From positions 28,629,554-28,693,553 of the forward strand of contig NC_090282.1 in the NCBI RefSeq assembly GCF_037392515.1: a stretch of 64,000 bases of DNA. The letters are read 5' to 3'. The first letter of the stretch is position 1. Each line of letters begins with the position of its first letter. The notes below the pieces were generated by a model that had not been told where the DNA came from, made no database searches, and saw only the letters and a program-made list of their open reading frames with translations. The translations under genes were made by a program, and so were the position numbers. This DNA comes from Haliotis asinina. Taxonomy: Eukaryota; Mollusca; Gastropoda; Lepetellida; Haliotidae. Below are positions 20,882-64,000 of this stretch, one piece after another.

Positions 20882-23800
20882 ATGCTTCATGAAGTTCTTC
20901 TTGCCCTGACAGGTCACTGTGGTGGTGTATTTAAGGACAACGGAGATGGAATAAAAGTTGGTGAACAAATCAAATGTGTATGATGTTGAACAGCATTTAC
21001 AGATCTATTGCCAGTGCAGCAGACTGAGTTGTCAAACCGCCTGTAGTAGCACTAGTATCCTGTACATTGGCGTTTGGTTTTTCTGTCATTTTCTGATCAT
21101 GAATTCAGTTTTGTCTTGTTGCAATAGCAAAGTGGGTACTAATGATTATTTCTCATGATGTACTAGGACTGTGTCAGTGTTCTATTGCTACAGGATAGAG
21201 GGTCAGAGCGGCTGACGTGCTTGACTTATATCTTATCACAATGGGGAGCACCTTTAGAATTCAGCACCACAATTTCTCGTGAGGACGCTCCCAGCCGTAG
21301 GTCACATGTCAGTGAGACAAACAACCAGTTTATGAGAACCCATTGGACGCGAACCCGCGACCTTCGGATTGTTAGCCCGACAGCTAACCGACTGAGCTAT
21401 GTCCACATAGTTGCACAATGCGAAAATTTAGCTAGTCATTCCTGTGATGTCAAGCAAATGAACGGAAAGAGTCGAATTGGTTGCGGACAATTACGAAGGT
21501 TACAGGTAGACTTGGTGCCTCATGCTTTCAATCTACTGATGGTTGCCGAATGGTCCTGATATCATTTGGCATGATCGTCCTATTCCATAATCTGCAAGAT
21601 ACCATGCTGTGTTGAATGAGCCGATATGGTTCGAACTGAAAACGGTTGTTGACGTCAGGCGTCAGACATTGATTTCACGGTGCATGCATGAATGACGTGC
21701 TTGTATAAAAATCATGCTGTCATGACAGAAAAGTGTTGTAGGGAACCCAGTAAGGATAATGTGGATGCGCTAGGGAATGTGTGAGACATGGGCATGTCTA
21801 GTGACAGCACGAGGGTGAGTTAGACTTCAAATCATTATTGAAAAGATGTAAACTCACACGCAAAAGAAACGCAAGTCTGACACGTAGCATCACTGTATTT
21901 CTTTTTCAACAGTTAAGTATACAAATACGAGTGGAGTCAGATGTACAGAAATTTGAGCAAACACAGTTCATTGGTATCCATACTCAATAAGGTCTTTACA
22001 ATTTGTGTCAGCAATTGCATTTTCCGATTTCGATCATTTGAATTACGTCATTCAATACCTGGTGTGCCCACCATTAGCATTGATCACTGCCACACATCTC
22101 CTGTACATAGAGTTGATCAGACGATTTGTGAAGGCCCTTGGGATCATTCTGCACACTTCCAGTACAGCTGTACGCAGGTCATCAGCAGTTGCAGGCGCTG
22201 GCTGCACTTGGTGGAGACGCCTCTGAATCTCATCCCACAAGTGCTCGATGGGGCTAAGGTCAGGGCTAAGGGCCGGCCATTGCATGACGTTTATGTTGTG
22301 CTGTTGAAGAAAGGCCATGGTAAGTCTTGCAACATGCGGACGAGCATTATCTTGCTGGAAAATGTGATTCCGATGTCGGGCAAAAAATGGAGCAACATGA
22401 GGTCTGATGACTTGGTCAATGTAACGCCGAGCTGTGATGCCGCGTCCTCGACCTTGACCCACATTCTGGAAGCACATTGGTCCAAGCCTAGCATTAAGTC
22501 CAATTCCGGCCCAAATCATGACACTAGGACCACCCCATGCATCCCTTTCCAACACGTTTCGGTCAGCAAAACGCTCTCGTTGACGTCTCCAAACCCTGAC
22601 CCGTCCATCTGCATGTGACACACAAAAGCGACTCTCATCAGAGAAGATGACACTTCTCCACTCACGCTGACGCCAATTTTGATGACCCTGTGCCCATTGA
22701 AGTCGTGCTTGTGTATGGTGTGGTCGGAGTATTGGACGACGTGCTGGTCGGCGACATCGTAGGTTGGTGGCGCGCAGCCGTCGGATAACGGTGTCACGGC
22801 TGATGCGTCGATTATGTGTCCCGACAGTATCCCGAGCAGTTTGGCTTGCTGTAAACTAATATACAGTTTGGATCACGCTGGTGTTGCCGTGTCATGAGAC
22901 GATCTTGCCTAGGGGTCGTGACCCTTTGTCGGCCGCTTCGTTGACGGTCATTGGTTGACTGTGTTGTGTTATAGCGATGCTGGAGACGGTAGATTGTCGT
23001 TATGTTGACGTTAAAGTGCCGAGCAATGTGTTGGACAGACTCTCCAGCGTGTAAACGTCCGATAGCCTGATTCCTCTCATGTTGGTTTAGTCGCGGCATT
23101 GTTGAACAATGAAGGATATGCCAAAGTTCTTGGCGGTTTTTATACCCACTATGGGTAGTGAAAAATCGTGCATATTCAATTCCACGTGGGAAGTGTGCAT
23201 CATGTCCACATCTTCATTTGAGTGGTGCATTTTGGCGATTCGTTTTCGTCTTGTTGTGATCACATTGATCTTATAAAATGATACAGAAAATGTTCCAAGC
23301 ATCGCCAAGCATCACTATGTAAAGAAGGTATTATGAAATTAGGGGTCCAAATTTGGTGCTTCAGTTCAGATAGAAACTTGCGTTTCTTTTGCGTGTGAGT
23401 ATAGATATAGAGGTGAAAGTTGCTCGAAGCCGATTTCCATCAGCCCTAAATTTCGACATCAAACCGTTTCATCGTTTATTTAACTTTTGATGTTTTTGGT
23501 CTCTCGTTTTTCTTTGTGAACAAAATATTCAAAATGGAAAATGAAAACGATGGGTACTCATGCATTTACCTACTATATTGGCTTAGGTCCCTTACCCTAA
23601 CCCTAACCCTAAACCCTAAACCTAACCCTAACTCTTGGTTAATAAATAGAATAAGCTCACCGAACCGGCACGAAAATGGCTGACGAAGCCAGTGTAATGA
23701 ATTCTTACCACTTCAAAAATAAATATTTCTTTGTAATGGTGCAAATTACTGAGTGACAAAGATATGTATGTATATTAGTTTACAGTTATAACTCCTTTGA

Positions 23801-43890: not shown

Positions 43891-46575
43891 GAACCTACTG
43901 ATCGATGGTCTGGACCAGCTGGGTTTCACGTCGTGTTGAAAGGTCGTTATTTTCATGTTCGGTATCCAACTCAATGTAGCGCTCATAAATCTAAAGGGTT
44001 TCTGTGTCTTTTTTGCGGAAAATGCCCTGGATATTCCCTGCAAACATCCGCCACCCACGCACTTGCATATAAGATGCGTCTCTTACCGGGCATCTCGCGA
44101 AGAAACCATATAATAGCTATTTCTACACGTACCATGGTAAAATAAAGAAATAACAAATACCGGACAAACGTTTTCAAGGATCACGAATGTTGTGGTGCCC
44201 TTAGAGACCATTGTGGGTTTAAGGGCAGCTCAGACGTGAGTAACTCGTTTGCTGAGTCTTTGCTACAAAAATATCCATAAACATGTTCATGAACCAGAAG
44301 TCTACGTTCAGTCAGAGTCAATATCCTGTTTTATGGTGTGAGGTTCGCTATATACGTCCCCTGCAGACGCTGAGAGTGATGTATAACTGTCACACGTTAA
44401 GATCGCTCGTGTGACGCATGATGGTGCGAAAAGAGGTCATCAGTGGACGATAGCTTTCGGTAGATTCGGAGTCATTTACTCAGTGTACGGAGTGCGTGAA
44501 CACATTAACGACCCTGGCTCTTCACCAAGCTGGCAGATCCTCTATTAAAGGAAACAGTGAATGGAGAAACATCTTCAGAATCTAGGGTAGTTAAAATACT
44601 TTGGTTGACAGAGTAACAAATCAGAACTAAAATATAAAAAAACCCTAAGAGCATTTCTGACTGGGGTTCATTGGGGTACGCCAGACTGTAGTAACGAGGG
44701 GCTTCAGGGGCGTCCATCTGTCTGTTATAATGTATGTATGTACGCTTTCATAATTATGTCCACTGCCCTTCATATATCGCGAGGTCAATTGAGGGGTTCA
44801 CGGATGCCAAACTGTCTAAAATGGATGGAACCAAATAACAATGAAATATGAAACATCGCATCATGATGCCAAAAATGTTGCCATCAACAAAATGGATGTC
44901 AGCTGTTTCTTTCCAAATTTAAAATAGTCAGTCAAGCAGTTTATACTTCAACCATATCTGCAGATTATGTTCACTTTGATGTCAGTGTATCCGCTGAGCA
45001 AATATGCAAATAACCGGACCCAAACACCTCTTGTCTATCCTTACTAGCAACTGTCCAGTATCCTCATGTTTCTATCTGTAATGTGTTGCTACAAGGGTAT
45101 TTTTAACTCATTTAGCTCACGAATGATTCATATTTTCCCATAAGGTCGTAAGGTGTAGAGTTATAAACGATGTATGAAAAGCATACAAGGCTTATTTGGC
45201 AAAAACCCTGTCACTCTGTCTTTCTCACGCAAATAGCCCACAGGTTATTTACGGGCACGTGACGCGAGGTGACGTCTTTTGTTCTCAAGCATCAAATCAC
45301 TCTCTCCTGCAAGCCACTGTTGGGGAAGGGCAAACACCTACGTTCCGAAAAGCCTTCAAGAATTCTGGAGAAGTGGGCCGGCACCACTGTATCTCCAACA
45401 ACCAAGTGATATCTGGCTGGTCCATGTAAGATGAGTTTATTATATTCTATTATATCTTGTAAGGAAAGTGTGGCTGTCGTGAGCTCTATCTAGGAACACA
45501 GGCGGACGTAAACTACCAGGCAAAACGACAAATACTTCCTTTCTAAAGTTTAGATTCACTTATAACACTCACTATATGTTACCGATATATACATGGTCAC
45601 GTCGAAGATTGATTTCTTCAGTAACTTCCAAGAACCAACTGCAAACCTTATGTATATAAATTGCACGAGAATCATGCATCAAACTGCCCACAAACATGTC
45701 CGTGAACAACTACGTTTTGGTGTAAAAGTCTGCCAAGAATTTGCCAATTTTCAACGATTATTATCTTTTACCGGACTCATGACAATAGTGTAAGGTTTCC
45801 AACGTTACAGATACACGATACATCAATTCATGTGTAAAAAGTACCTTTATTGGGTTTGGAATATTTCTGCAAAATCTAGTTTAGAACATTTGCCAGAAGT
45901 AAGTGGCTATATTTACATTGTTGAATGTAAGCTTTTGAATAGAAGTGCAGATTTGTGTTTAATAGTGGAAAAATATAAAGGTACAAAAACTGTCGATTCA
46001 ACGGTGATGTGTTTGATTCGGACATCACTGTTTCGTTAGGAACTCTAACTTTTCCAGTGTTTCAGATCCTAAAGTCTGTCATTTTAAAGATTATCAAGTA
46101 TTCGAGTTTGCATATGTTTACTTTTATATGACAGTTTTTGGAAGACGTTGCAAATACAGGTGTACATACATTCATTGTATTTAATTGTATTAATATGCAT
46201 CGTCTATACTGTTTGCATAATATCTAACAATTTTGGCCATGACAGACTCCGTTTGTTTTTGATAACAGAAGTCCAGACTCGATCGTTTTCAATGGTACTT
46301 AATGTCATCTAACATCACATGCCCCAGTGACGCTGACTGCATTTACTTAAATTGGGTAACATTTTTCGAAAAATTACGTAATATTGATAAGATCAGTTTT
46401 GTATATTATTTTCCTTTTTGTTTTGTATTTCTAAAGGTGTATTTCCTTCGGTTACGTATCATATTTACTTATTATTTACAAACTGACGATGTAAATTTAT
46501 ATCGAAGAGCACTGAACTGCTACATAATATCATGTACACGTACGGTTTTATTCATTTCCAGAGAATTCACTTAAT

Positions 46576-49500
46576 ATGAAGGTAGTGTTCACCGTCTTCG
46601 TAGTTGCTGTGATTGCGGTGTGCGACGGCCGTGTTCTGTCCGCACCAAGATTTCCTCAGGATGGTGTTTCCAACCGAGGTTCGGGGACGTCGAGAAACGA
46701 TCAGATTGGCACCGTGGGTTCCACCCAAAGTTCTCCCCTCTTGGAATACCCTTACCCTCCGGCATGTTACCCCAACGTATGCCCAATGTATACCATCACC
46801 CCTGGTTCCTTCAATGAGGTAATACTGGCGACCCATCAGCTTTTCATGCTATGTTTACGTTGATATTATTTCATCCATATCATCAGAACAAAGAGCAATG
46901 ATTTGAGGGATTTTTATCGTTGACCGTAACAGAAAAAAGACCAATACATTCATTCTTTATACCATTAACCGTAACAGAAGAAAGAGCAGTAATTTGATGC
47001 CTTTTTACCATTAACCGTAACAGAAGAAAAAGCAATAAATTGACGCCTTTTACTCTTAGCCGTAACAGAAGAAAGCGCAATAAAGCCATGCTTTTTACCA
47101 TTGACCATAACAGAGGAGAGAGCAATAATTTGATGCCTCTTTACCATTAATCTTATGACCTATCATTAAAAACAAAGTTCATAGAAAACAGAAATCACCC
47201 ATATCGATTCATAAGGTTAGCATTGTATTTGGCAAAGAAACATATCTTTCTTTTCCGTTCAGCAATACGAAAGGAGAGAATATCCTGCTGGAAAGTGGCT
47301 GAAAACACCTAGAAAACCGTACGATGTTCCACGCATCGAATCCCAGGAGCTCATCGACTACATTGTCAGCGAGAATTCACTGCGTGAGTAACACATGATT
47401 CACACACAAGACAACCTTACAACTTCTGAGTTAGAATTGGTCTTCAGTAACCCATGATTGTCGGAAGAGGTGGCTAACGGGTGGAGGGCTCGCTGACGTA
47501 GTTGACACATGTCATCTCACCCCAGTTGCATGGATTGATGCTCATGTTCATGTTTATCAGTAGACTGTGTGGTTGATACTCGATTATTTACAGACTGATG
47601 CCATATAGTTAAAATATTGGAGAGTGCGTCGTTAAACAACCAACCAACTGTACTGAAAGGCAATGGACGATTCTGATTTTGAATTGAACTTGGTTATTGA
47701 ACTCCTGGTGTCGTCAGTAATTCTCAGTGATCGATTTATATAAATGTCACAGCTGTTTTGCCTTTTTCGCCCAATTCGACTTGTCAGATTTTGTAGGGGA
47801 GCTAGACCTATGTATATATTTGCCCGAGCTGTCTTCACACCAGACAGTTGAAGAATCATAAGTATCAGCCATGGCAGGGAGTTGCAGTTTCACATTGTTC
47901 TGTGATAGGAAATGAAAATAAATATATTCGCGAAGTTATTAAAATAATCATGTGAAGCAAACTACATGTACTGATTTCGTATTTACATCATTGCAAAACT
48001 GACTTTGATAATGTGTAATTCATGTGAACTGAATGGGGTGAAGGGAATCTGGAAACAATGGACAAGCTGGTGTATTGTGGTGAATATTTGACACTGAAGA
48101 AATACTTTCACAACCAGTGGAAATGGTTTCGTCCAATGTACTTGAGTTAACTACCAAATCCACAAATTTACTAAATCTCGGAGTAACTTATTCTTAGCAT
48201 ACTGTGAACCATTACAAGGAACTGATTTTGGCAACATTTTTGGAATATGTAAGACAACAAGATTTTTTTATCAAACAGGGATGATGCCTTTCCAAGTGTT
48301 TATCTGAATAAAAGAACACCGACATAGCCCTATAGCCATAAAGACAATGTTATCTTAATTAATCCAAACAGTAACATGCATGGCTATCAGCTTCGAAATT
48401 CTTCCAAATATATTGTTAGCAGAACTAATCAGAATCCAAGAGTTCTCGAGTTGTCTACCTGTTTGTGTTATAACATTTAGAAACTTGTGTAGCCCCACAC
48501 ATAGTGGTCTGTACTTGGACTGGGACGGGTAACCCGTATAGCCGGGAAGAGTGGGTAATCAGTTGGACCCGGGTACCCGTTTCAATACCCGTACCCGCTA
48601 TGATCATGTGACTGATAGATTAAACAACCTATTCTTTCATGATTAAAAGGTTGTATCGTCTTTGAAGATTTAGACATAGTCACTTCTTTTGCATATAATG
48701 CGTGGTTAAGATACTGAAAAACTCGAAATTTTAGCCTCCAAGATGAAGAAGATATTGCCATTTCCTGCAAATTTGATGTCATGACTTAACATAACGGGTA
48801 GCCAGGTAGGGTAGGGTAACAGGGGGTGGGGTACCCGGGTAGAAAATTTGTACCCGTCCCAACCCTAGTCACCACCTGATCTCATTTAAGTTAGGTGCTT
48901 CAATCCTGTTATTAATCCCTTTTCACAATAATGATAAATGTGCCGAAAGTGTTTCCACAACGATTGTACAGTCCAAACTATGTCATAAACATGTATTCAT
49001 GGATCCTGAAAATTGTGATGAGCCCAGGTGTTGGCGAAATGGTGAATCAATTTTGAAAATTTCCTTCAAATGTCAACCATTAAACTGTTGGAATGTTGTA
49101 ACGGTGCTCGAACATACCAAATGTATGCATGTACGAAATGTCCAATACCTACATTCACATACAACGGCATCCATTTTGTTTCTTTGTATAGAAACAACTT
49201 TGCAATACGCCGTCCCGGTTGTGGTCCAGGTAGACGTCCCTGTCGGCCATGCTGCCGTCTACAAGAGGTTGATGTCCCAGATGTCCTCCGTCGCGATCAT
49301 AATGCAACAGAAACGAAACGATATAATACAACAACTAACGGAGCTGCGACGGCAACAGCAACATCTGCAGCCCCACCAGCTGATGACGGAGTTGCAGAAG
49401 AGGATGCAGCCGATGAAGGAGCAGTACCGGACGCTGACGGCGGGAATCTACAGTGAATTCACCGCCTTCGCCCACGACTACAACATGACGGTGTACCTGT

Positions 49501-50639: not shown

Positions 50640-51535
50640 AGCGGCCTTTCGTTGTTCATTTAACAGGTAGTGTCATTGTATTGTTCTGTCAACACAGAGT
50701 GGCGATATATAAAACAATATTATGCCACTACCTGTTAAGTGGACAATATATCGTCACTCTGTTTTGAGAGAACAATATGATGCCACAATTTGTTAAGTGA
50801 ACAATATTTAGCTACTCTGTGTTGTCCTCCCGATAGGTAATGGTCACAGAATGTCAATCTATTGTCCACTTCAAAGGTAGTGGCATTGTATTGTTCTTTC
50901 AACACAGAATGCCCAAATGCTATCCTCTGTGATGAGAGAACAATATAATGCCACAATTTGTTAAGTGAACAATATTTAGCTACTCTGTGTTGTCCTCCTG
51001 ATAGGTAATGGTCACAGAATGTCAATCTATTGTCCACTTCAAAGGTAGTGGCATTGTATTGTTCTTTCAACACAGAATGCCCAAATGCTATCCTCTGTGA
51101 TGAGAGAACAATATAATGCCACAATTTGTTAAGTGAACAATATTTAACTACTCTGTGTTGTCCTCCTGATAGGTAATGGTCACAGAATGTCAATCTATTG
51201 TCCACTTCAAAGGTAGTGGCATTGTATTGTTCTTTCAACACAGAATGCCCAAATGCTATCCTCTGTGATGAGAGAACAATATAATGGCACAATTTGTTAA
51301 GTGAACAATATTTAGCCACTCTGTGTTGTCCTCCTGATAGGTAATGGCCACAGAATGTCAATCTATTGTCCACTTCAAAGGTAGTGGCATTGTATTGTTC
51401 TTTCAACACAGAATGCCCAAATGCTATCCTCTGTGATGAGAGAACAATATAATGCCACAATTTGTTAAGTGAACAATATTTAGCTACTCTGTGTTGTCCT
51501 GATAGGTAATGGCCACATTGTCCTTTGAACAGGTG
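50640..51535. repeat. 168-bp tandem satellite with hairpin monomer
   Basis: GATAGGTAATGG recurs at 50832, 51000, 51168, 51336 and 51501: three periods of exactly 168 bp and one of 165. Central copies are nearly identical while the edges (50640-50830, and traces at 51700-51970) are diverged. Within each monomer GTGGCATTGTATTGTTCT is followed about 60 bp later by its near-complement AGAACAATATAATGCCAC, so each unit can fold. Because 168 is a multiple of three, one minus-strand frame stays open for 289 codons; it is an artefact. Confidence 0.92.
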
Positions 51536-51695
51536 AGGCGGTTGGGTAGTCAAGTGGTTAAAGCATTTGCCCATATCGCCGTAGACCCAGGTTTGAATTA
51601 TCACATATGTACATTAAGTGAAGCTCATTTCTGATGCATACCGCAGTGAAACAGCTAAAGCTGCATAAAACTAGACCCAGTCAGTCAGTCAATCA
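51533..51695 (+). repeat. tRNA-derived SINE family A
   Basis: A box TTGGGTAGTCAAGTGGTTAA and a B box-like GGTTTGAATTA with tRNA spacing, body 'GAAGCTCATTTCTGATGC', tail 'GCTGCATAAAACTAGACC' and then CAGTCAGTCAGTCAATC. The end repeat is CAGT instead of CACT, which suggests drift of the simple tail. It directly follows the satellite array. Confidence 0.65.
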
Positions 51696-54225: not shown

Positions 54226-54545
54226 GATCGTTGTGTAACGCTTCACAAAGCAATATTCCAGCTTTATGGAGGTTAATTGTTTATAATGGCGTCTGGACCA
54301 GACAATCCAGTGATGTTTTTGGTTTGGTTTGTTGTTTTACGCCGCACTCAGCAATATTTCAGTTATATGACTTTGACGGTCTATACAATCGAGTATCGAC
54401 CAGACAATCTAGTTCAACAGAATGAGCATCAGACTACGCAACTTGGATACGAGGACAGGTGTCAACCAAGTCAGAGAGCCTGACCCCTCGATTCCGTTAG
54501 TCGCCTCTCATGACAGTCATAGGTTATTAAAGACTAATTCTAACA
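54226..54545 (-). repeat. Two adjoining or nested family B copies
   Basis: In plus-strand reading one copy runs 'CAAAGCAATATTCCAGC' to 'CCAGACAATCCAGTGATG' (54226-54315), where it stops mid-element; a second, longer copy starts at once with 'TTTTACGCCGCACTCAGC' and runs to 'GACAGTCATAGGTTATTAAA' (about 54545). Both are on the minus strand. The first may have been a target for the second, or the two may be truncated neighbours. Confidence 0.65.
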
Positions 54546-55040
54546 TGATCTTCTCGAGTTGGACCTTACCTACTCACCGAGAAGATCTCTTTGACCTCAT
54601 TGTATCTTGTATGCCAGGACATGTTCTTTTTCAGTGTATTATATGCTATTAATGTAGAAACCGTTTCTTTCTGTAAAATATGTCCTTTCAGAGACTAGAT
54701 GTTAGTCTAAGGTAGAATGGTGAATAACAGAATCACAGACATCCGGGATTTGCCTCCACAATCAAAGGACTGAGCGATCGCACTAGATATTTACGAGACA
54801 TACCTTTTGTCCTATCACTTTGAAATTAGGCACGCACAAAGCCGTAGTGACCAAAATACAAATTTATCATTTTCCTTACTGTTATCACACTGATTCACTG
54901 TTAAGAAAGTGACTTGTTCCTAGTTTGAGGCAGATAGAACGAATAAGGTTCATCGTCATAAAACTTCTTCATCTACTGAAACTGCTGTTTATTTCAGGTA
55001 CTCTTAGCAACTGACTCATAGAGGGTCCTCGTTAGTCACC

Positions 55041-58000
55041 ATGAGAAGGTCATCGAAAGTCGCTAATGGCCCCGGCCAAACGGGCGCAGTGGGTGGGCAA
55101 GGAGGGTCGGTCGTCCTCCAGAAAACAGGCCGGAAGATCCTCACAGAGGAAGAACAGCTTCAACACGACATCAAATTCCACCCAGAACTCCAATCAGCGC
55201 TTGAAGGATTCGACGAGTTTCTCAAACTTCTTGACGCTAAGAAGAAGGACAAAGGACAGTTGTTTGAATCCTTGAGAACGAACATTAGTAAAGCCTTTGA
55301 AACATATACAACCGACAGCACACGGTGTATCCTGGGGAACTATCTGGCAGTGAAAGGGTTCGCGAAACGTATGTATGATCTGTATGAATTTGCTATTGGA
55401 ACGATTGATATCCTCACGTCCGATTTCATCCACAAGCATCAGAATGCTATCGAGGTGAAGCTGGTGATGGAGATGAGAAAGTGCCTGTGGACGGCCACAG
55501 ACAACAGTTGGTCTCTTGGAGAGAAGGTTTCCCAGACGGGATTGTTCAAGTACCTCCTCGCCGACGTAAAGGCCATCGGGAAGACTCTTCCAGTTATATC
55601 GGTAACCTTTTCTATTGACATAGTCACAGGCCAGTTCATGTGTGGTTAGGGGTACGTGTGGTTTGGTTGGCTAAGAAGTCGGAATCTGTTGTACAAAGTT
55701 GCTTCCTATCGGTATATCAGAAATCTATCATGGTTATCAGTTCGAATCCCGCTTCAAGTTGATTTTCTTTCAGCTTTTGCAGCACCATACTCATGCTTGT
55801 GTGTTTCATCAATGCCTTCTGGCTTCCTCCCTCATTAGAGAGACAAACCTGGGTGAGTGAGTGAATGAGGTTAGTTTTACGCCGCACACAGCAATATTCC
55901 AGCTATATGGTGGCGGTCTGAAAATATTCGAGTTTCCATCAGACCATCCAGTGATGAACAACATGAGCATCGATCTGCGCGATTGGGAACTGATGACATG
56001 TGTCGACCAAGTCAGCGAGCCTGACCTCCCGATCCCGTAAATCGCCTCCTATGACAAGTATAGTTGCCTTTAATGGCAAGACAAGACAAGACAAAGACAT
56101 ATATCGTACTCAGGCCAATATGCAAGCAATACAAGTATTTTATCAGCACATGTTACAGACATTTCACGAAAGAAATTGCAGTTCAGATAAGGTATTGCTT
56201 CTAAGGATAACAACATGTTTTACAAAGAGGGCAAGATAACGTATTACATTTTCATTTTTGGAGGATAGAATGGAAACAAAAGCAGCTGAGGGATATTTTA
56301 AGAGGTACTAATGCTGGATATATATTTTTCTTAAATCAGCATAATGTGGGCATACAAAAGCAAAGTGAATGGCCGAGTTACATAATGGACATATCCTTAA
56401 ACATCTCTCTACTGAATGTCGTCTGCCCTTATTTACTGATAAGTCTAATAACCTCAACCAAAAATCTGATATTTCTACATGTCAAAAACAGATAGAGTAG
56501 TCCTGTTTGAATTAAGCTCTTGAGTGATCTACAACTGATATCTTGAACTATTGTCGAGACAGGAATGCCTTTCTTGATGATACATTCTAACTAATTGTTC
56601 TCGAAATTGTTTAACCAATATTTTAACCAACATCTTATTTGTGAATTTATAAATATCGGATATCTATCACATTCTCCATGAACCATGCAAGTTGATGTTG
56701 CTTGCTCTACATATAAAAATCTTTTATACGCTAAAAGGTAATTTCTCTAGACAATCCTGACGTTGAAATCCCCAAATTTCAGATCCATTGAGCATGATGG
56801 GTTGGATTTGTTCATCAAACAACTTAAAAATATATTTTCAGGCTTAAAATTCCAAAGTTCAGGGAAGCTGAAGCCTTATTACCACGTGATTTCAGAACAT
56901 ACTAGTCCAAGATAGGTATATTGATTGACAATAGATAAATTTGTGGATTCCACAAGCCACGGTGGCTGAGAGGGTTGGATTCCACAAGCCACGGTGGCTG
57001 AGAGGGTTAGATTCAACAAGTCATGGTGGCTGAAAGGTGCCTTACTCTGAGAGTGTGGGTTCGAATCTAGTGTGGGGTTGAACCCCAAGAAGTACTAGCA
57101 TCGGGACAGACAGGACTCCCAAATATAGCACTTACACGATCGATGCATTGCAATCAAAGCTGATCTTTTCGGATACTGCCTAGAGGATTTCGTGTTAAAA
57201 GTACATACACATGATACACAAGCATAATAAAGACATCTTTTAAAGATTAAAAACGTCTGGGATGAACGGTGCGGTTATTGCGGTTCCTCGTGTTAAGAAT
57301 GTTGTACAGTTGCAATAACTTCATCATATGAGTCCTGTCTCACATGCGTGACTTTCACTGACTTGCCAAGCTTGTTTCCGGGATATATAGGGCACCTGTC
57401 AATCATCCAAGACAAGTGTGTCACGTATGTGATTTATTATGTTATTCGATTTGTCTCGAGAGGTATGATACATGCAAAACGTGTACATGTTCTAGGTCAA
57501 GTCTGTCTGGTAAATGTATTTATATAAATACAGCAAAGTGTAAAACACAGATAAAATAAAAGATTATCTGTATACATATTATGTATACCATCATTACTAT
57601 TTGTAGACGTAAACCAGGTAAAATGACAATAGGTCCTACGTTCTGCGTCTTTGCTGTCCATATATATAAACATATAATATGTAGATTAAGAAAACTATGG
57701 AATACTGTAAGGGACATTCTCGCGATCCCGACCTTTGGAAACAAGCGAGAATGTCCCTTACAGTAATCCATAGAAAGCAGAAAGTAGAGACATTAATCGT
57801 GTACCTTTTACGGTGACGGCTTAATGATATGAACAATATAACTGAATGCTTCTCCTGCCACTTTGCTCCCTGAGTCATCTTAACATCCCCAACGGAGATT
57901 AGCATTGAAGATTCATCTTCTAATATGCCTTAGACAAGACGTAAAGCCATAAAAAAGTTGACAGATGACATTTTAGTTGTTCATTCTGGTAGACTTTTCT

Positions 58001-61000
58001 TGTCTTCAGTGAGAAGACATGGGTATTAACTATGAAACATTCAGGCCACACTTAAGGTTTCCGGATTTTGATACATTTGGTTGGTCGGTCAGGATTAACT
58101 GCAATATACAGATTTTTTGTAATCTGTTTTAAGTTTGATTTGAGGTGATAATGTATAAAAATCCAGTGTAGGTCCTTGTAAAATTATATATCTCAAATTT
58201 TACAGCGGCTTTTCATTGTCATACTTTTGTCAGTGCGATCTCCATCGTCGGATTGAACCGTCTTGTCCTTTGCGGTATTTCATTGAATTTTCGTCATTAT
58301 ATTATCTTTCGACTAACCGTTAACCGAACAAACACAAGTGAGGCTAACCACAGGATTATATGTGTAAGTGCGTTTATCCCCCTCTGTCAACCACGACTTC
58401 ATCCACCACGTGAATTTTTCATACCTGTCGCAGTTAGGTTTGAACTTTGACCCTTAAATTCCTTACTGATAAATGCAGTTACTTAGTTTTACGAAGTTTA
58501 TCTGACATCTTCGTGTTCCCGAAATTTAATCCTTTAATAACTATGGCACGTTCTCACGTTCTTCATCAGGGACTGTCAGAAGCAACCATGACATGACGGT
58601 CAGGCTTTAGGTTGTCGACAGTCAGCAGGGTCATATAAGGTCATTGCGTACATATGTAATTAAAGGGCTAAGGCAGAATATCATCAATATATTATTTGTG
58701 GATTAAGCTACTGGATTGAATGCAATCATTAGGCCTCAACGCAAGATGCTAATCAAATGAATACCTTTTATTATGTTTAAATCTTCAGTAACCCATGCTT
58801 GTCATTAGGGGCGACTAAGGGGACCGGGTGGTCAGGCTCGCTGACTTGGTTGACACATGTCCTCGTATCCCAGTTGCATAGATCGATGCTCATGTTGTTG
58901 ATCACAGGACTGTCTGTTCCATAGTTGATAATTTACAGGAGGGCGACGTATAGCTGGACTACTGCTGACTGCGGCATGGAACAACAACCCACCAACTACA
59001 GGATCTTGCATTGCAAACCCTGACATGAATGGTTATATGATGTTACTGTCGGGACTGGCAATATTTACAGTGAAGATAGTTTCTCTGTTTCCTCGACAGA
59101 CACATGACCACAACCGCCATTTAGATTGATGCTCTTCTGGATGTACGTTGTTTGTCCTAGGATGATGATATTGCCTTTGACACCGCTATTGGCATCATGT
59201 ACAACTGTGCCCAGAACCACGTGACCAGACAGAAGTATAGAGAGCTGAATGCCGTTGACACACTCCTGCCCTTCCTTAAAGCTAAGTCCACAAGTAAGTG
59301 TGTCCAGACATGGAGTGTCCTGTGTCCTTGTTAACAGTGTACGGGATACAATTAAATTGTAATTTAAAACTGAAAGACTCTTAGTTAATTTTATTTTGTC
59401 TATGTTTCGAAAAAATAATCTTTAAGTTTGGTTTGAAGTAATATTTTTAAAAGATCAAGAGGCATAGTACATATGATGCAATCATGAAATTATCGGAGAA
59501 GAAAAGTTTCCCTTGCCATCAGTCTATTTTATTAACCTACTACGACTTCACGTTTTTGAAGAGAAAACACCACAGTCAACGTATAGATTTCCAAGTCAAA
59601 GCCCTACAATGGCGCGTAATAATGTTACAATGGAAAACACGGAACTGTTCACAGCAATGGCTTTTTGTTTTCAAAAGATCGTTGAACCTAGGGTGTTCAT
59701 GATGCTGACATCATTCGTTATGACAGATATTACACCTACCTTCAAAGCATGTGTGTGGTTATCTATAGTTTATGTTTGGCAGAAGTGAAACTTACGACCC
59801 TACTGGTGTTAACCCACATCGTGGACGAAGTCAAGAACAAAGCCCTATCAGCAGACGTCACCGTGTTCGACTTCCTCATCGACATGATCAAGAAGGCGTG
59901 GGAAGATGTCCACCATCGCTGTGTCCAGGGGACCACTTTCTTCAGCGCCCGAGAACTGCTTAACGGCCTGACAGCATTGGCCAAGAATGATGACAACAAG
60001 CGACTATTGATGGAAAAGGGGGTTTTGAAAACCCTGAAATCAATCCTTAAAGGAGGAACAGAGGTTGAGCAAGAGGAGGCCCTAGGGTGTATCAGAGAAC
60101 TTTCATTTAATGACGAAAATAAAAGCATTCTCAACGTAAGGATATCTCTGGGTGGGACAAATTTGGAAATATGGCCATGGTACATTAGAACAAAAAAATA
60201 ATCAAATCCATAAACGTAGTACGTTACATGTACTATGAATATAAAAGCATAGGTTATAATTATAAGAGTCCAAGTTTGTATCAACAACAACCATCGTTGT
60301 CTGTGATTGCGAAGAGGCAATAATTGTTGCAGTGTGTGAAGAGAGTTATATTTGGGTAATACGTACACGACAATAGTATTTACAGACTTTGAAACAACTT
60401 GGAACAAACTTTGGCGTCTTTGGCTCCCATTTTGGCTCGCCCCAATCGTACACAAATCATTGGAATAATAGGGGAAGAATGGTTCTCTTTCACATGATTA
60501 TTAAAACTGATATAATACTGCAGGCTGACGAAGGTGTGATGGATGTACTCAAGGAGAAAGAAAACTCCGGTAACGCACAAATCGCCAAGGCTGCCCAGTT
60601 TACTCGATGGGGCCTGGCCACCAAGAAAGTTGCGGACTCGAGTAAGTGTTGTTTTATTACAGTGACGGGCTGTGAGTAAACCATTTGCATATAACTTGAA
60701 CCTTACTTTTGACAAGATTTGATCTGACAGTCAATGCTGGGACAAATGCTCCTCTGAAGAATGACATGAACATTATTCATCAAAACAAAGTATGTGTCAT
60801 CTCTTTAATGAATAATGTATTAAAACTCATTTTGATTATATTTTGATTGTGATGTTTCTGTTACATTTCAGATTTAAAGCGAAGACAATCAGGATTGTCA
60901 ATGACCTCAAAACAACCCAAATCTGGCCACGTGATGTTGAGTTACTCTTGGCACAACCAGAAGACGGTGATAGAGGTATGTCAGATGTGTAATGATATAT

Positions 61001-63104
61001 AATGACTTATTGAATATTATTCATTATGCACAGTTGTTTCTCATGTTCACAATTGATACCTTTCAGCAAGCGTCGCCAAGACTATCTGGCCATAACGTTT
61101 AAGTGCTTCTGATTTTTTTTAACGCCACTGTGTTTTTAGTCCAGGTGAATTGAATTCTTTGGTCTCGGGGTCATGGTCTCATCTCCTGGGACTTTGCTTC
61201 AAATGAGACTCTGGTCCGCTGTTACATCTGGTTGTCAGGGCCAGATCTTCCGAAGCTCTCTTAGAGCTAAGATAGTCGTAAGTCAATGTTTATGCAAGGC
61301 ACTTACGACCATCTAATTCTATACAGGAGAGCTTCGAATACCTAGGTTCAGAACATTAGAAGCAGATACCTCTTATGGCATCGCTCTTATGGCATTCGAT
61401 AGCTCCCAAGGAAACCATTTGGAATAAAGCCTGACAGATGTAGGTGTTCGTGAAGGGTTTTTCTAACGACACATAAGAGAAACCCGTGGTCGTATTTTTC
61501 ATTGACCGATACTAGAAACCTGTGGTTATATATACAGGCTACGACGGTATCGCTTTTTCCTCTGTCATGTTGCTGTGGATCGGCTGGACCAGGGCTCATT
61601 TTGTCAAATTCTTTCCAAATTAAAAAGACCTGTACGTCCAATATATTTCATAACAATTATTTGTCGTTTTAGATCACTTACGGTACAATATATTTTTGGT
61701 TCATGCTTGAGTGAATTTTATACAGGTCTATGACAAACTGAAGAGTGAAGGATTCCGGCTCTGGATTGACATCGATGACATGGCAGGCAGCACACTAGGG
61801 GCGATGGCGAACGCCGTGGAGAAGGCCAGCGCTGTTATTTTATTTATATCGGAGTCATATTTTGAATCACAGAATTGCAGGCAAGGTCAGTGACACTTTA
61901 TAAAGCCACGGTATAACTGGCTGCTTATGAGGCTCATGGGACTTTGCAGACCGACACACAGACAGGCAGGCAGACAGGCAGATAGTGAGCCATGCATGCA
62001 TGCATCACTGGTTTGTCTGGAATACACTCGGTTATTTACCATCTACCACCACACAGCTGGGGCTTCATACCACACCATGCTGTCAAACCACGAGTTACCC
62101 ACCCTTCTCGAATTCCATGAATACTAAATGTCAGTCATACACTATAGAAACTCTCCATGGCATAATGGAGAAAATACTTTTTAAAAAGCACCACTAATAC
62201 GTTGTACTTGCGATATTCACATATACAAAGAATTACTATTTACTTAATATTGTAACCACAAAGTTCTGATACCACACTGGTTTCAGAGGCCGAGTACACG
62301 TACAAGTTGAAGAAGACGATGGTACCAGTGCTGCTACAGGGGAATTACCAACCAACTGGCTGGCTGGGGATCATGATTGGAACGAAGCTGTATTTTGACA
62401 TGAGTCCTGGAAAAGACTTTGGCGCCAAGCTGAAAGAACTCGTTAGAGAACTTGGCCAAAATGGTCGAATAACAGAGGAGGAGGAAAAGGTAGAATTATA
62501 TGCTGCACAGCTTTATTATTCCATTCACTGTAAATACTAATGGGTTCATGCTTGAGTGAATTTGATTTTTCAAGGAGGTACAATCATGTTGGTGTGGGCG
62601 TAATCATTCTATAACAGATGTATCCATGATGGTGGGTTTGCTGGATTTGTGGAGGCATGCCATAGGAGACATATGAGAATATGTTGATTTATACTGATGG
62701 GTTTATGGTAGAGAGGATTGGTGCATGTTTGGGTTCATGGTAGAGTGGTTGGGTACATGGTAGAGAGGATTGGTATGGTAGGGTGGATGGATTCATGGTA
62801 GAGTGTTTGGGTTCATGGTAGAGCGGGTGCATTTGTGGTAGAATATATGGGTTCAGGGTGGAGCGGATGGATTTGTGGTAGAATAGATGGTTTCATGGAA
62901 GAGCGGACTGGGTTGGGTTTTTGTAGGGTGGAGTTGTTCATGATAGGATGGATGGGTTTCGACCGACATGTTTCAGTTGCTGGATGTGACCGATGCGGCC
63001 CCAAAATCTCTCAGTACAGTCGCCGCTCGCGGTGGAGGTGACAGGGTGCCTGGGTGGACCAACAAAGATGTCATTGAGTGGTTGAAGAACATCGGCATGT
63101 ACCA
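55041..63104 (+). CDS. ARM-TIR-SAM protein, 3' end beyond window
   Basis: Coding exons 55041-55601, 59161-59293, 59783-60135, 60524-60641, 60872-60975, 61726-61885, 62287-62489 and 62977-63104, phases consistent; 586 codons so far, and the next acceptor (CCACAG) coincides with the window end. Residues about 30-187 are helical, 188-388 look like armadillo repeats (FDTAIGIMYNCAQN, LLVLTHIVDEVKNK, EEALGCIRELSFNDENKSIL). Residues about 406-540 are a TIR domain: HVMLSYSW (strand A), GFRLWIDIDDMAG (box 2 region), AVILFISESYF, SQNCRQEAEY with Glu477 at the SARM1 catalytic position, and WLGIMIGTKLYFD. Residues 571-586 (PGWTNKDVIEWLKNIGMYQ, partly) open a SAM domain. Such proteins act in cytosolic stress or innate immune signalling, probably by NAD+ cleavage; that role is inference. 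The ATG follows CACC and an acceptor at 54997. Confidence 0.9.
55851..56090 (-). repeat. Repeat family B in intron 1 of the ARM-TIR-SAM gene
   Basis: Plus reading starts GAGTGAGTGAATGAGG, TTTTACGCCGCACACAGC, 'AGCTATATGGTGGCGGTCTG' and ends near 'CAAGTATAGTTGCCTTTAAT'. The element is on the minus strand and about 240 bp, lacking its extreme 5' block. Confidence 0.8.
56960..57110 (+). repeat. tRNA-derived SINE with triplicated head
   Basis: An A box CCACGGTGGCTGAGAGGGTT of the Leu/Ser tRNA type occurs three times (the second and third about 37 bp apart), followed by one B box GGGTTCGAATCTAG. The first two heads are identical. This is a different SINE from family A. The head repetition looks like a local tandem duplication after insertion. 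Confidence 0.6.
57695..57773. repeat. Short foldback hairpin
   Basis: Arms of about 28 bp (CTATGGAATACTGTAAGGGA and CATTCTCGC; the right arm is the complement with one mismatch) around a loop of about 20 bp. It lies in intron 1 of the ARM-TIR-SAM gene. No second copy was noticed in the window. Confidence 0.65.
58783..59005 (+). repeat. Repeat family B in intron 1 of the ARM-TIR-SAM gene
   Basis: Plus copy from 'TTCAGTAACCCATGCTTGTC' through 'GTGGTCAGGCTCGCTGAC', 'GATCGATGCTCATGTTG' to 'TGACTGCGGCATGGAACAAC'. It ends about 155 bp before coding exon 2. Confidence 0.8.
61238..61349. repeat. Palindromic mini-element, copy 2
   Basis: Second copy of the palindrome at 2172-2283: AGCTCTCTTAGAGCTAAGAT and AGTCGTAAG on the left arm, and 'CTTACGACCATCTAATTC' with GGAGAGCTTCGAA on the right. 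The right arm is more diverged than in copy 1. It lies in intron 5 of the ARM-TIR-SAM gene. Confidence 0.7.
62620..62965. repeat. Minisatellite, GGTTCATGGTAGAGnGGnTG type
   Basis: About ten irregular units of 25-30 bp built around 'TTCATGGTAGAG', in the intron between the TIR-encoding exon and the SAM-encoding exon. It ends 10-12 bp before the acceptor of the SAM exon at 62977. Confidence 0.8.
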
Positions 63105-63527
63105 GTAAGTCTCAAGTGACGCCAAATGATGGTAGCGCCATTGCGTCTGTTTCATGTTTCAACGATGTTCGTCCCTTAGAGATAGCAAATAATGTGATTA
63201 TACGACGCCTCTTTGGATAGACTCCAAGTTGTCCCGGGACTACACTTGTCCTCTTTTGTCCTGAAAGAGTTGTCTTATTTGGACATTTAATACAGTTTCT
63301 TGACGATAAAACAAATCAAAATAGAGTTAGAAACATTTACCCCCGATTATCACCAAGATAAACTTCCACACAAAGTTTATGGATGTCGATGACCGTCATA
63401 TTGAAAGCTTTAGAATGTAATGTGTGCCCTTATGTATACTCGAGTTAGCTGCAAGTATCACAGTCGTGTGAATAGTATGGCATATATTGTAATCTAAGTA
63501 TTCCCAATAATACTAAATGCACAATGT

Positions 63528-63752
63528 GTCCCTCTTTCCTGAAAGGGAGGTGCTACATATGTTTGTCTGTCATACAGTGAACTCTCCCTCTTTCCTGAAA
63601 GGGAGGTGCTACATATGTTTGTCTGTCATACAGTGAACTCTCCCTCTTTCCTGAAAGGGAGGTGCTACATATGTTTGTCTGTCATACAGTGAACTCTCCC
63701 TCTTTCCTGAAAGGGAGGTGCTACATATGTTTGTCTGTCATACAGTGAACTC
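63528..63752. repeat. 56-bp tandem repeat, four copies
   Basis: GAAAGGGAGGTGCTACATAT recurs at 63541, 63597, 63653 and 63709 with essentially no differences. There are no unique spacers, so it is a minisatellite. It lies in the last intron visible in the window. Confidence 0.93.
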
Positions 63753-64000
63753 TTAACAAACACATGAAGTGCTTTCAGCTTATACGTTTTTTCAGTAATA
63801 GTTTTCTAGAAACGTTATCCGTACATTGTCTATATTTAATATCAAGGCAATCAGCTGGACTTTTTGTTTGGTATCCCATTGTTCAACCTACTCTTCACCA
63901 GGTGGTCCTAGCAATTGAGCCTGCTGTAGGATAGTGCAGGGTGTTCATCTTTTGTAGTAGAGACTAATAGAGAATCTAATCATGTTTTTCCTGACCACAG

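Follow-up and report, generated by a model that had tools for sequence, protein, structure and literature searches.

A multigene family of putative ARM-TIR-SAM proteins in the gastropod Haliotis asinina

The 64,000-nucleotide stretch of Haliotis asinina DNA analyzed here (hereafter the window; C3:28629554-28693553, in a 1.14-Gb assembly made up of 159 contigs) carries on its forward strand most of a spliced gene, whose ten exons (A-J) join in phase to encode a protein of 639 residues. Eight of these exons (A-H) lie inside the window. The predicted protein presents, in order, an N-terminal region, putative armadillo repeats (ARM; exons B-D), a TIR domain (exons E-G), a linker, and a SAM domain (exons H-J), and its sequence makes ARM-TIR-SAM a very probable architecture. 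A preliminary description of the window had proposed one gene in this order, and the proposal stands: the SAM-like domain is completed downstream, and in five modeled paralogues the TIR likewise leads into these three exons.

Gene structure

The exons and associated signals are listed below, numbered from the first base of the window; exons I and J lie beyond it, in downstream DNA of the same assembly.

55041..55601, + strand: exon A; ATG and 187 codons, N-terminal region without known domain; phase 0 out, donor GTAACC
59161..59293, + strand: exon B; armadillo-like repeats, residues 188-231; AG acceptor, GTAAGT donor, phases 0 to 1
59783..60135, + strand: exon C; armadillo repeats, residues 232-349
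60524..60641, + strand: exon D; end of the armadillo region; AG acceptor, GTAAGT donor, phases 0 to 1
60872..60975, + strand: exon E; basic linker and TIR start (HVMLSY); AG acceptor, GTATGT donor; the TIR_2 match begins at residue 409
61726..61885, + strand: exon F (160 nucleotides); TIR core (BB loop, beta-C, NCRQ); AG acceptor, GTCAGT donor
62287..62489, + strand: exon G; remainder of the TIR; donor GTAGAA, weak by eye
62490..62540, + strand: candidate read-through into intron 7; 16 residues and then a stop (open frame 62256-62540), predicting an ARM-TIR form without SAM
62977..63104, + strand: exon H; linker and first SAM helix (WTNKDVIEWLKNIGMYQ), covering the first 18 positions of SAM_2; AG acceptor, GTAAGT donor, phase 2 out
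63999..64000, + strand: acceptor AG of exon I, falling exactly on the last base of the window
64001-64064, + strand: exon I; 64 bases, in phase, beyond the window
64464-64556, then TGA, + strand: exon J; the protein ends with the SAM, beyond the window

Exons A-H, spanning 55041-63104, read through 586 codons without a stop, with AG acceptors on exons B-H, GT donors on exons A-H, and agreeing phases, so that the consecutive in-phase exons first reported for this locus are borne out. The two other frames of the same spliced DNA contain 33 and 37 stops, and an in-frame stop lies upstream of exon A at 55005. The F/G junction splits the codon of E477, a glutamate of the type found in nicotinamide adenine dinucleotide (NAD+)-cleaving enzymes (NADases). 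A tblastn search found no second copy of the gene within the window.

Domain evidence

The TIR domain is clear: Pfam TIR_2 matches the 155-residue TIR piece with 80.0 bits (E-value 2.7e-22), and in the complete protein it matches over the full profile (1-122) with 76.8 bits, above the TIR superfamily cut-off of 28. Taken as a 202-residue piece, exons B-D pass the cut-off of Pfam Arm (22.3 bits versus 20.6), and the structure model of one exon is likewise consistent with an armadillo fold. When the whole spliced protein was searched against the PDB at E-values up to 10, the ARM part matched Vac8, APC, and designed ARM proteins and not SARM1, an absence that excludes nothing. The 187 residues of exon A have no Pfam match, and an NCBIfam scan gave no match above cut-off.

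The SAM domain calls for more care. The window holds only its first 18 of 66 positions, in exon H, and SAM_2 scores this part at 20.8 bits in a 22-residue piece, 18.5 in the 43-residue exon, and 14.4 in the 587-residue protein, relative to a cut-off of 20.5; taken alone, the DNA of the window is therefore suggestive of a SAM rather than proof of one. With the C-terminus finished, SAM_2 exceeds the same cut-off in pieces of 75, 95, and 78 residues (22.1, 21.1, and 21.9 bits, respectively). SAM_3, SAM_1, and SAM_2 match five, four, and two of the six family members described below at E-values up to 1. In a PDB search with the completed C-terminus, six of the seven listed matches are SAM-bearing chains (SMS1, liprin-beta, SARM1, and TIR-1; best E-value 0.07), and 14 of the 17 chains listed for the family SAM profile bear a SAM. 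All nine residue shuffles of exon H matched no family, and we rejected a chance match in view of these empty shuffles and the paralogues. Two other families overlapping the SAM stretch, a plant LRR (leucine-rich repeat) family (15-16 bits) and CagS (19.0 bits), lie below their cut-offs of 27 and were taken as chance. The case for the SAM is carried by its conservation across the family and not by its Pfam score.

A family of paralogues

A genome search with the protein returned 48 matches, 8 of which belong to the window gene. From the DNA surrounding some of the other matches, five complete paralogues (P1-P5) could be modeled, four in tandem (P1-P4, C3:59.036-59.083 Mb) and the fifth at C3:7.471-7.479 Mb. 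Their exon ends were set by homology to the window gene together with splice consensus, so that independence does not extend to every base; we chose the exon A donors by hand in P3 (GTGTGA) and P4 (GTCAGT), P2 requires a GC donor (GCAAGT) for exon E, and P5 carries one additional intron in exon C. In all six genes (the window gene and the five paralogues), the TIR leads into exons H, I, and J with agreeing phases and no stops, exon I measures 64 nucleotides, and exon F measures 160. Identity of the paralogues to the window gene is 17-23% in the N-terminal region, 39-45% in the ARM region, 48-52% in the TIR, 12-22% in the linker, and 39-46% in the SAM; thus, the SAM is about as conserved as the ARM region, whereas conservation is lower in the TIR-SAM linker. 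For P3-P4, the closest pair, the NG86 ratio of nonsynonymous to synonymous substitution (dN/dS) is 0.25 for ARM, 0.20 for TIR, 0.21 for SAM, and 0.55 for the N-terminal region, and 1.23 for the linker, where changes are few. The P1-P2 ratios are unusable, with synonymous sites saturated in four of five regions.

A sixth relative on C10 (L048) has the same order with its exons partly fused: single open frames hold the counterparts of residues 149-352, of residues 406-447, and of exons I and J, bridging the A/B, B/C, E/F, and I/J junctions without introns. Taken as a piece of 73 residues in which we joined one junction by eye, its SAM clears the cut-offs of both SAM_3 (25.5 bits versus 22.6) and SAM_2 (23.5 versus 20.5). 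Given that the joins are conserved and that exons are fused in the C10 relative, we rejected the possibility that two neighboring genes had been run together. A further locus on C13 (L044) has ARM and TIR pieces with a doubtful SAM start and was not counted as complete; C3:39.64 and C3:39.66 match only the TIR; and in six of the 14 genome stretches (four on C8, one on C15, and one on C7), tblastn found no ARM-TIR-SAM gene, the C7 stretch yielding weak TIR pieces only. P1, P2, and P3 begin with MGxxxS, a start that we take to be of the myristoylation type, and P4 has MGSTSS after an upstream ATG; the motif is absent from the window gene and P5.

The wider TIR repertoire of this genome comprises at least 150 TIR_2 matches (150 scored of 203 candidates). 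It includes a tandem array of other TIR genes at C3:85.08-85.19 Mb (L006, L008-L011, L014, L017, and L029) with a NCRREVSLADAL motif; their TIRs are 33-35% identical to that of the window gene and fall on the same side of the TIR tree as the ARM-TIR-SAM group.

Relationship to SARM1 and other TIR domains

The preliminary description had read the gene as the parts of SARM1 in a different order, a view that the TIR itself does not support. The SARM1 group of TIRs (group 24) has its TIR at the C-terminus and is marked by a PDVFISY box, a BB loop with E(R/K)LEAG, the residues W71/H73/E75, and H(D/E)YQ, as given in the available text of a 2020 survey (PMC7075850). In the TIR of the window gene, the box reads GHVMLSY, the BB loop DDMAG, and the helix NCRQE, with neither H(D/E)YQ nor WxHxE; the glutamate alone is common to both. 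This glutamate, E477, has counterparts in all six genes, within an invariant NCRxEAEY, and corresponds to the SARM1 glutamate in a global alignment and to the TIR-1 glutamate in a profile match. The overall layout also departs from that of SARM1, with one SAM, C-terminal to the TIR, and a stop after it. Searched against the PDB, the family TIR profile matches Cat1 (CRISPR-associated TIR 1, PDB 9mud; presumably bacterial) best, at 2.4e-8, ahead of Caenorhabditis elegans TIR-1 (0.0056) and human SARM1 (0.26). Cat1 is thus the best solved TIR relative by sequence, although the match is confined to its TIR part (residues 6-97 of 263).

We built a TIR tree of 39 sequences, drawing on 30 of the 150 TIR_2 matches. 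The eight TIRs of the family form one group with support of 97/92 (96/100 when SARM1 is removed), whereas SARM1, on a very long branch, attaches to the family at support of only 40/29. A mere rearrangement of SARM1 was rejected on the absence of SARM1-specific TIR motifs, and we do not file the window gene as SARM1, because the group-24 motifs are not kept, the TIR precedes the SAM, and the tree position of SARM1 is weakly supported. Among genome contigs, 48 pattern matches included no bacterial TIR relative at an E-value of 1e-3. Plasmid records gave six weak TIRs (24-40% identical, E-values 0.03-0.09), and viral contigs gave no match to one 29-base exon H pattern.

Comparison with described architectures

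The nearest described proteins each share part of the architecture. SARM1, TIR-1, and dSarm combine ARM, SAM, and TIR in one protein with the TIR glutamate and a weakly similar SAM; in contrast to the present family, they are ordered ARM-SAM-SAM-TIR with two SAMs and group-24 motifs, and a genome usually has a single such gene. The oyster Crassostrea has ARM-TIR proteins as a named class (PMC4346834), and 11 ARM-TIR genes appear in Table 5 of a study of Aplysia (PMC9334734), as the available text of each has it. Members of this molluscan class resemble the present family in joining an armadillo-type fold to a TIR and in being multigenic (here, the TIR passes its cut-off, whereas Arm passes as a piece and not in the whole protein), but a SAM is no part of their definition. 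In amphioxus, a TIR-SAM hybrid gene, Brafl1_131196, has cDNA support (PMC2575513). As in the window gene, TIR and SAM are joined in one transcript there; the available account, through which alone the two can be compared, mentions no ARM. Family 6 of the ecTIR-DC proteins, reported from the lucinid clam Loripes with the order ARM-Death-TIR-TIR (PMC6836662, citing Gerdol 2017), is an invertebrate cytosolic family with armadillo-like repeats and a TIR, but it has a Death domain and two TIRs, and no SAM is mentioned in the accessible part of the source. More broadly, architecturally diverse invertebrate TIRs fall in group 18, 22% of which is molluscan, in the portion of the 2020 survey available to us (PMC7075850).

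Genes of the present type could be hidden among those already named after SARM1. We take IPR001660 to be the SAM entry. The Aplysia table, in its available form, assigns three genes to SARM for bearing a TIR and IPR001660 in any order (PMC9334734), whereas SARM1 is typically present once per genome according to the available text of the 2020 survey (PMC7075850). Our literature search found no description of an ARM-TIR-SAM protein; the main survey (Gerdol 2017) and Zhang 2011 were outside its reach, and an earlier description may exist. The system had been put forward as under-described. That is fair, although published work already includes both ARM-TIR and TIR-SAM proteins; ARM-TIR-SAM may be new as a variant, with a real chance that the type has already been cataloged.

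Other features of the window

Several repeats lie in and near the gene. The intron that separates the SAM exons H and I holds a 56-bp tandem repeat (63529-63808), and the G-H intron holds a degenerate 20-bp repeat (62698-62951). Intron 1 and the surroundings of exon A contain copies of an interspersed repeat at 54233, 54334, and 55874, with an inverted copy at 58795; the 188-nucleotide arms at 55874 and 58795 are 76% complementary. Elsewhere, the window contains the following:

22055-23213, - strand: Tc1/mariner-type transposase in two overlapping frames (DDE_3 48.4 bits, HTH_Tnp_Tc3_2 45.9 bits)
46528-46860, + strand: open frame with a signal-peptide-like start (MKVVFTVFVVAVIAVCDGRV) and no Pfam match at E-values up to 0.01
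50757-51560: 168-bp tandem repeat, copies 83-98% alike, with the - strand open for 292 codons; it looks like repeat DNA rather than a gene

Functional interpretation

We marginally favor, from the sequence evidence, a reading of this locus as a member of a multigene ARM-TIR-SAM family that acts inside the cell in innate immunity or cell-death signaling. The immune role is proposed on three grounds only, namely the TIR domain, the duplication in tandem, and the extent of the TIR repertoire. As in SARM1, whose NADase activity is gated by NMN/NAD+ at its ARM, the ARM region might restrain the TIR or act as a sensor. The C-terminal SAM would multimerize the protein and draw the TIRs together, and, by analogy with SARM1, it is probably the SAM that drives such clustering. 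The clustered TIRs might in turn cleave NAD+ or a related nucleotide, giving rise to a signal or to the killing of the cell, and the paralogues with the MGxxxS start could be tied to a membrane. In SARM1, the SAMs lie between the ARM region and the TIR; here, a fast-evolving linker carries the SAM on the far side of the TIR, so that the TIR would be clustered from one side and restrained from the other.

Several observations weigh against this interpretation. The gene structure is a prediction from genomic DNA. In the complete protein, the SAM region falls short with SAM_2 (17.3 bits versus 20.5), SAM_1 (13.8 versus 23), and SAM_3 (12.8 versus 22.6), so that by Pfam's own rule the domain goes unannotated, and for this reason we call it a divergent SAM; moreover, the SAM matches span chiefly the first half of the domain. 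Arm also lies below its cut-off of 20.6 in the whole protein (18.2 bits in 587 residues and 17.9 in the complete 639), and the predicted structure of exon A is poor (pLDDT 41.6). TIR_2 passes its cut-off in the complete protein, while SAM_2 and Arm pass theirs in pieces only. As for the TIR, local alignment to that of SARM1 is weak (its score is reached by 3 of 1,000 shuffles) and leaves the glutamate unplaced; by spacing, the tryptophan that precedes the glutamate by four residues in SARM1 is an asparagine in all six genes; and the BB-loop residues important to catalysis in SARM1 are not kept. The glutamate itself (E75) is also common in TIRs for which the available text of the 2020 survey gives no reported enzyme activity (PMC7075850). 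The whole-protein SAM score has taken our confidence in the architecture down a little, from near certainty, and the joint shortfall of SAM_2 and Arm has likewise slightly lowered that in the overall interpretation. Even so, the gene, once completed, neither lacks a SAM nor turns out to have borrowed its SAM exons from another gene, the two outcomes that the preliminary description had named as fatal, although that SAM is divergent and under its whole-protein cut-off.

The replacement of the tryptophan and the loss of the BB-loop residues leave enzyme activity uncertain, and on sequence grounds we consider the TIR equally apt to be an enzyme and to fall short of one. The chief alternative is a nonenzymatic scaffold, in which the TIR would bind other TIR proteins (receptors or MyD88) and the SAM would polymerize the complex with no cleavage of NAD+. 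The same two departures from SARM1, together with the occurrence of the glutamate in TIRs of no reported activity, favor such a scaffold. However, the glutamate and its neighbors are invariant in six genes, and the nearest solved relative by sequence is the filament-forming Cat1, which we take to be a NADase. We regard the scaffold as a credible, if not the preferred, explanation.

It is very unlikely that the gene is instead an orthologue of SARM1 that underwent domain rearrangement in this lineage. The three kinds of domain are the same, the SAMs of SARM1 and TIR-1 are among the weak SAM matches, and SARM1 stands beside the family in the TIR tree, with the low support noted above; yet the order differs, one SAM replaces two, the group-24 motifs are missing, the TIR matches Cat1 far better than it does SARM1, and seven loci are present here, as against the single gene typical of SARM1 in the available survey text (PMC7075850). 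Least probable of all, albeit slightly less so once SAM_2 and Arm were found under their cut-offs in the complete protein, is a main product of ARM-TIR type ending in intron 7, with the SAM exons confined to a rare or alternative isoform: the GTAGAA donor of exon G and the read-through stop after 16 residues would permit it, but the SAM exons are constrained about as much as the TIR exons, and the exon G donors of the five paralogues are GTGAGT, GTAAGT, GTAGGT, GTAGGT, and GTAAGT.

Returning to the ARM-TIR-SAM family as an intracellular signaling system, we tentatively propose, as a possibility short of an expectation, that it represents an animal NAD+-consuming switch built independently of SARM1. 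In such a switch, a bacterial-like TIR would be set between an ARM regulator and a C-terminal SAM, and the family would have expanded and diverged as immune or cell-death switches, some of them anchored to membranes by N-myristoylation. In the available text of the 2020 survey, SARM1 alone among animal TIRs has known NADase activity (PMC7075850), and a 2026 preprint, in its accessible part, describes several TIR clades of molluscs, cnidarians, and non-model arthropods as uncharacterized (PMC13142454). With a candidate sensor, a clustering domain, and a TIR that keeps the catalytic glutamate combined in one compact family, this gap among animal TIRs becomes testable with one purified protein. 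The family also serves as a warning that counting every gene with a TIR and a SAM as SARM can be wrong. If the proposal is true, an independent ARM-TIR-SAM switch would be a second solution to the problem that SARM1 solves, with the opposite polarity.

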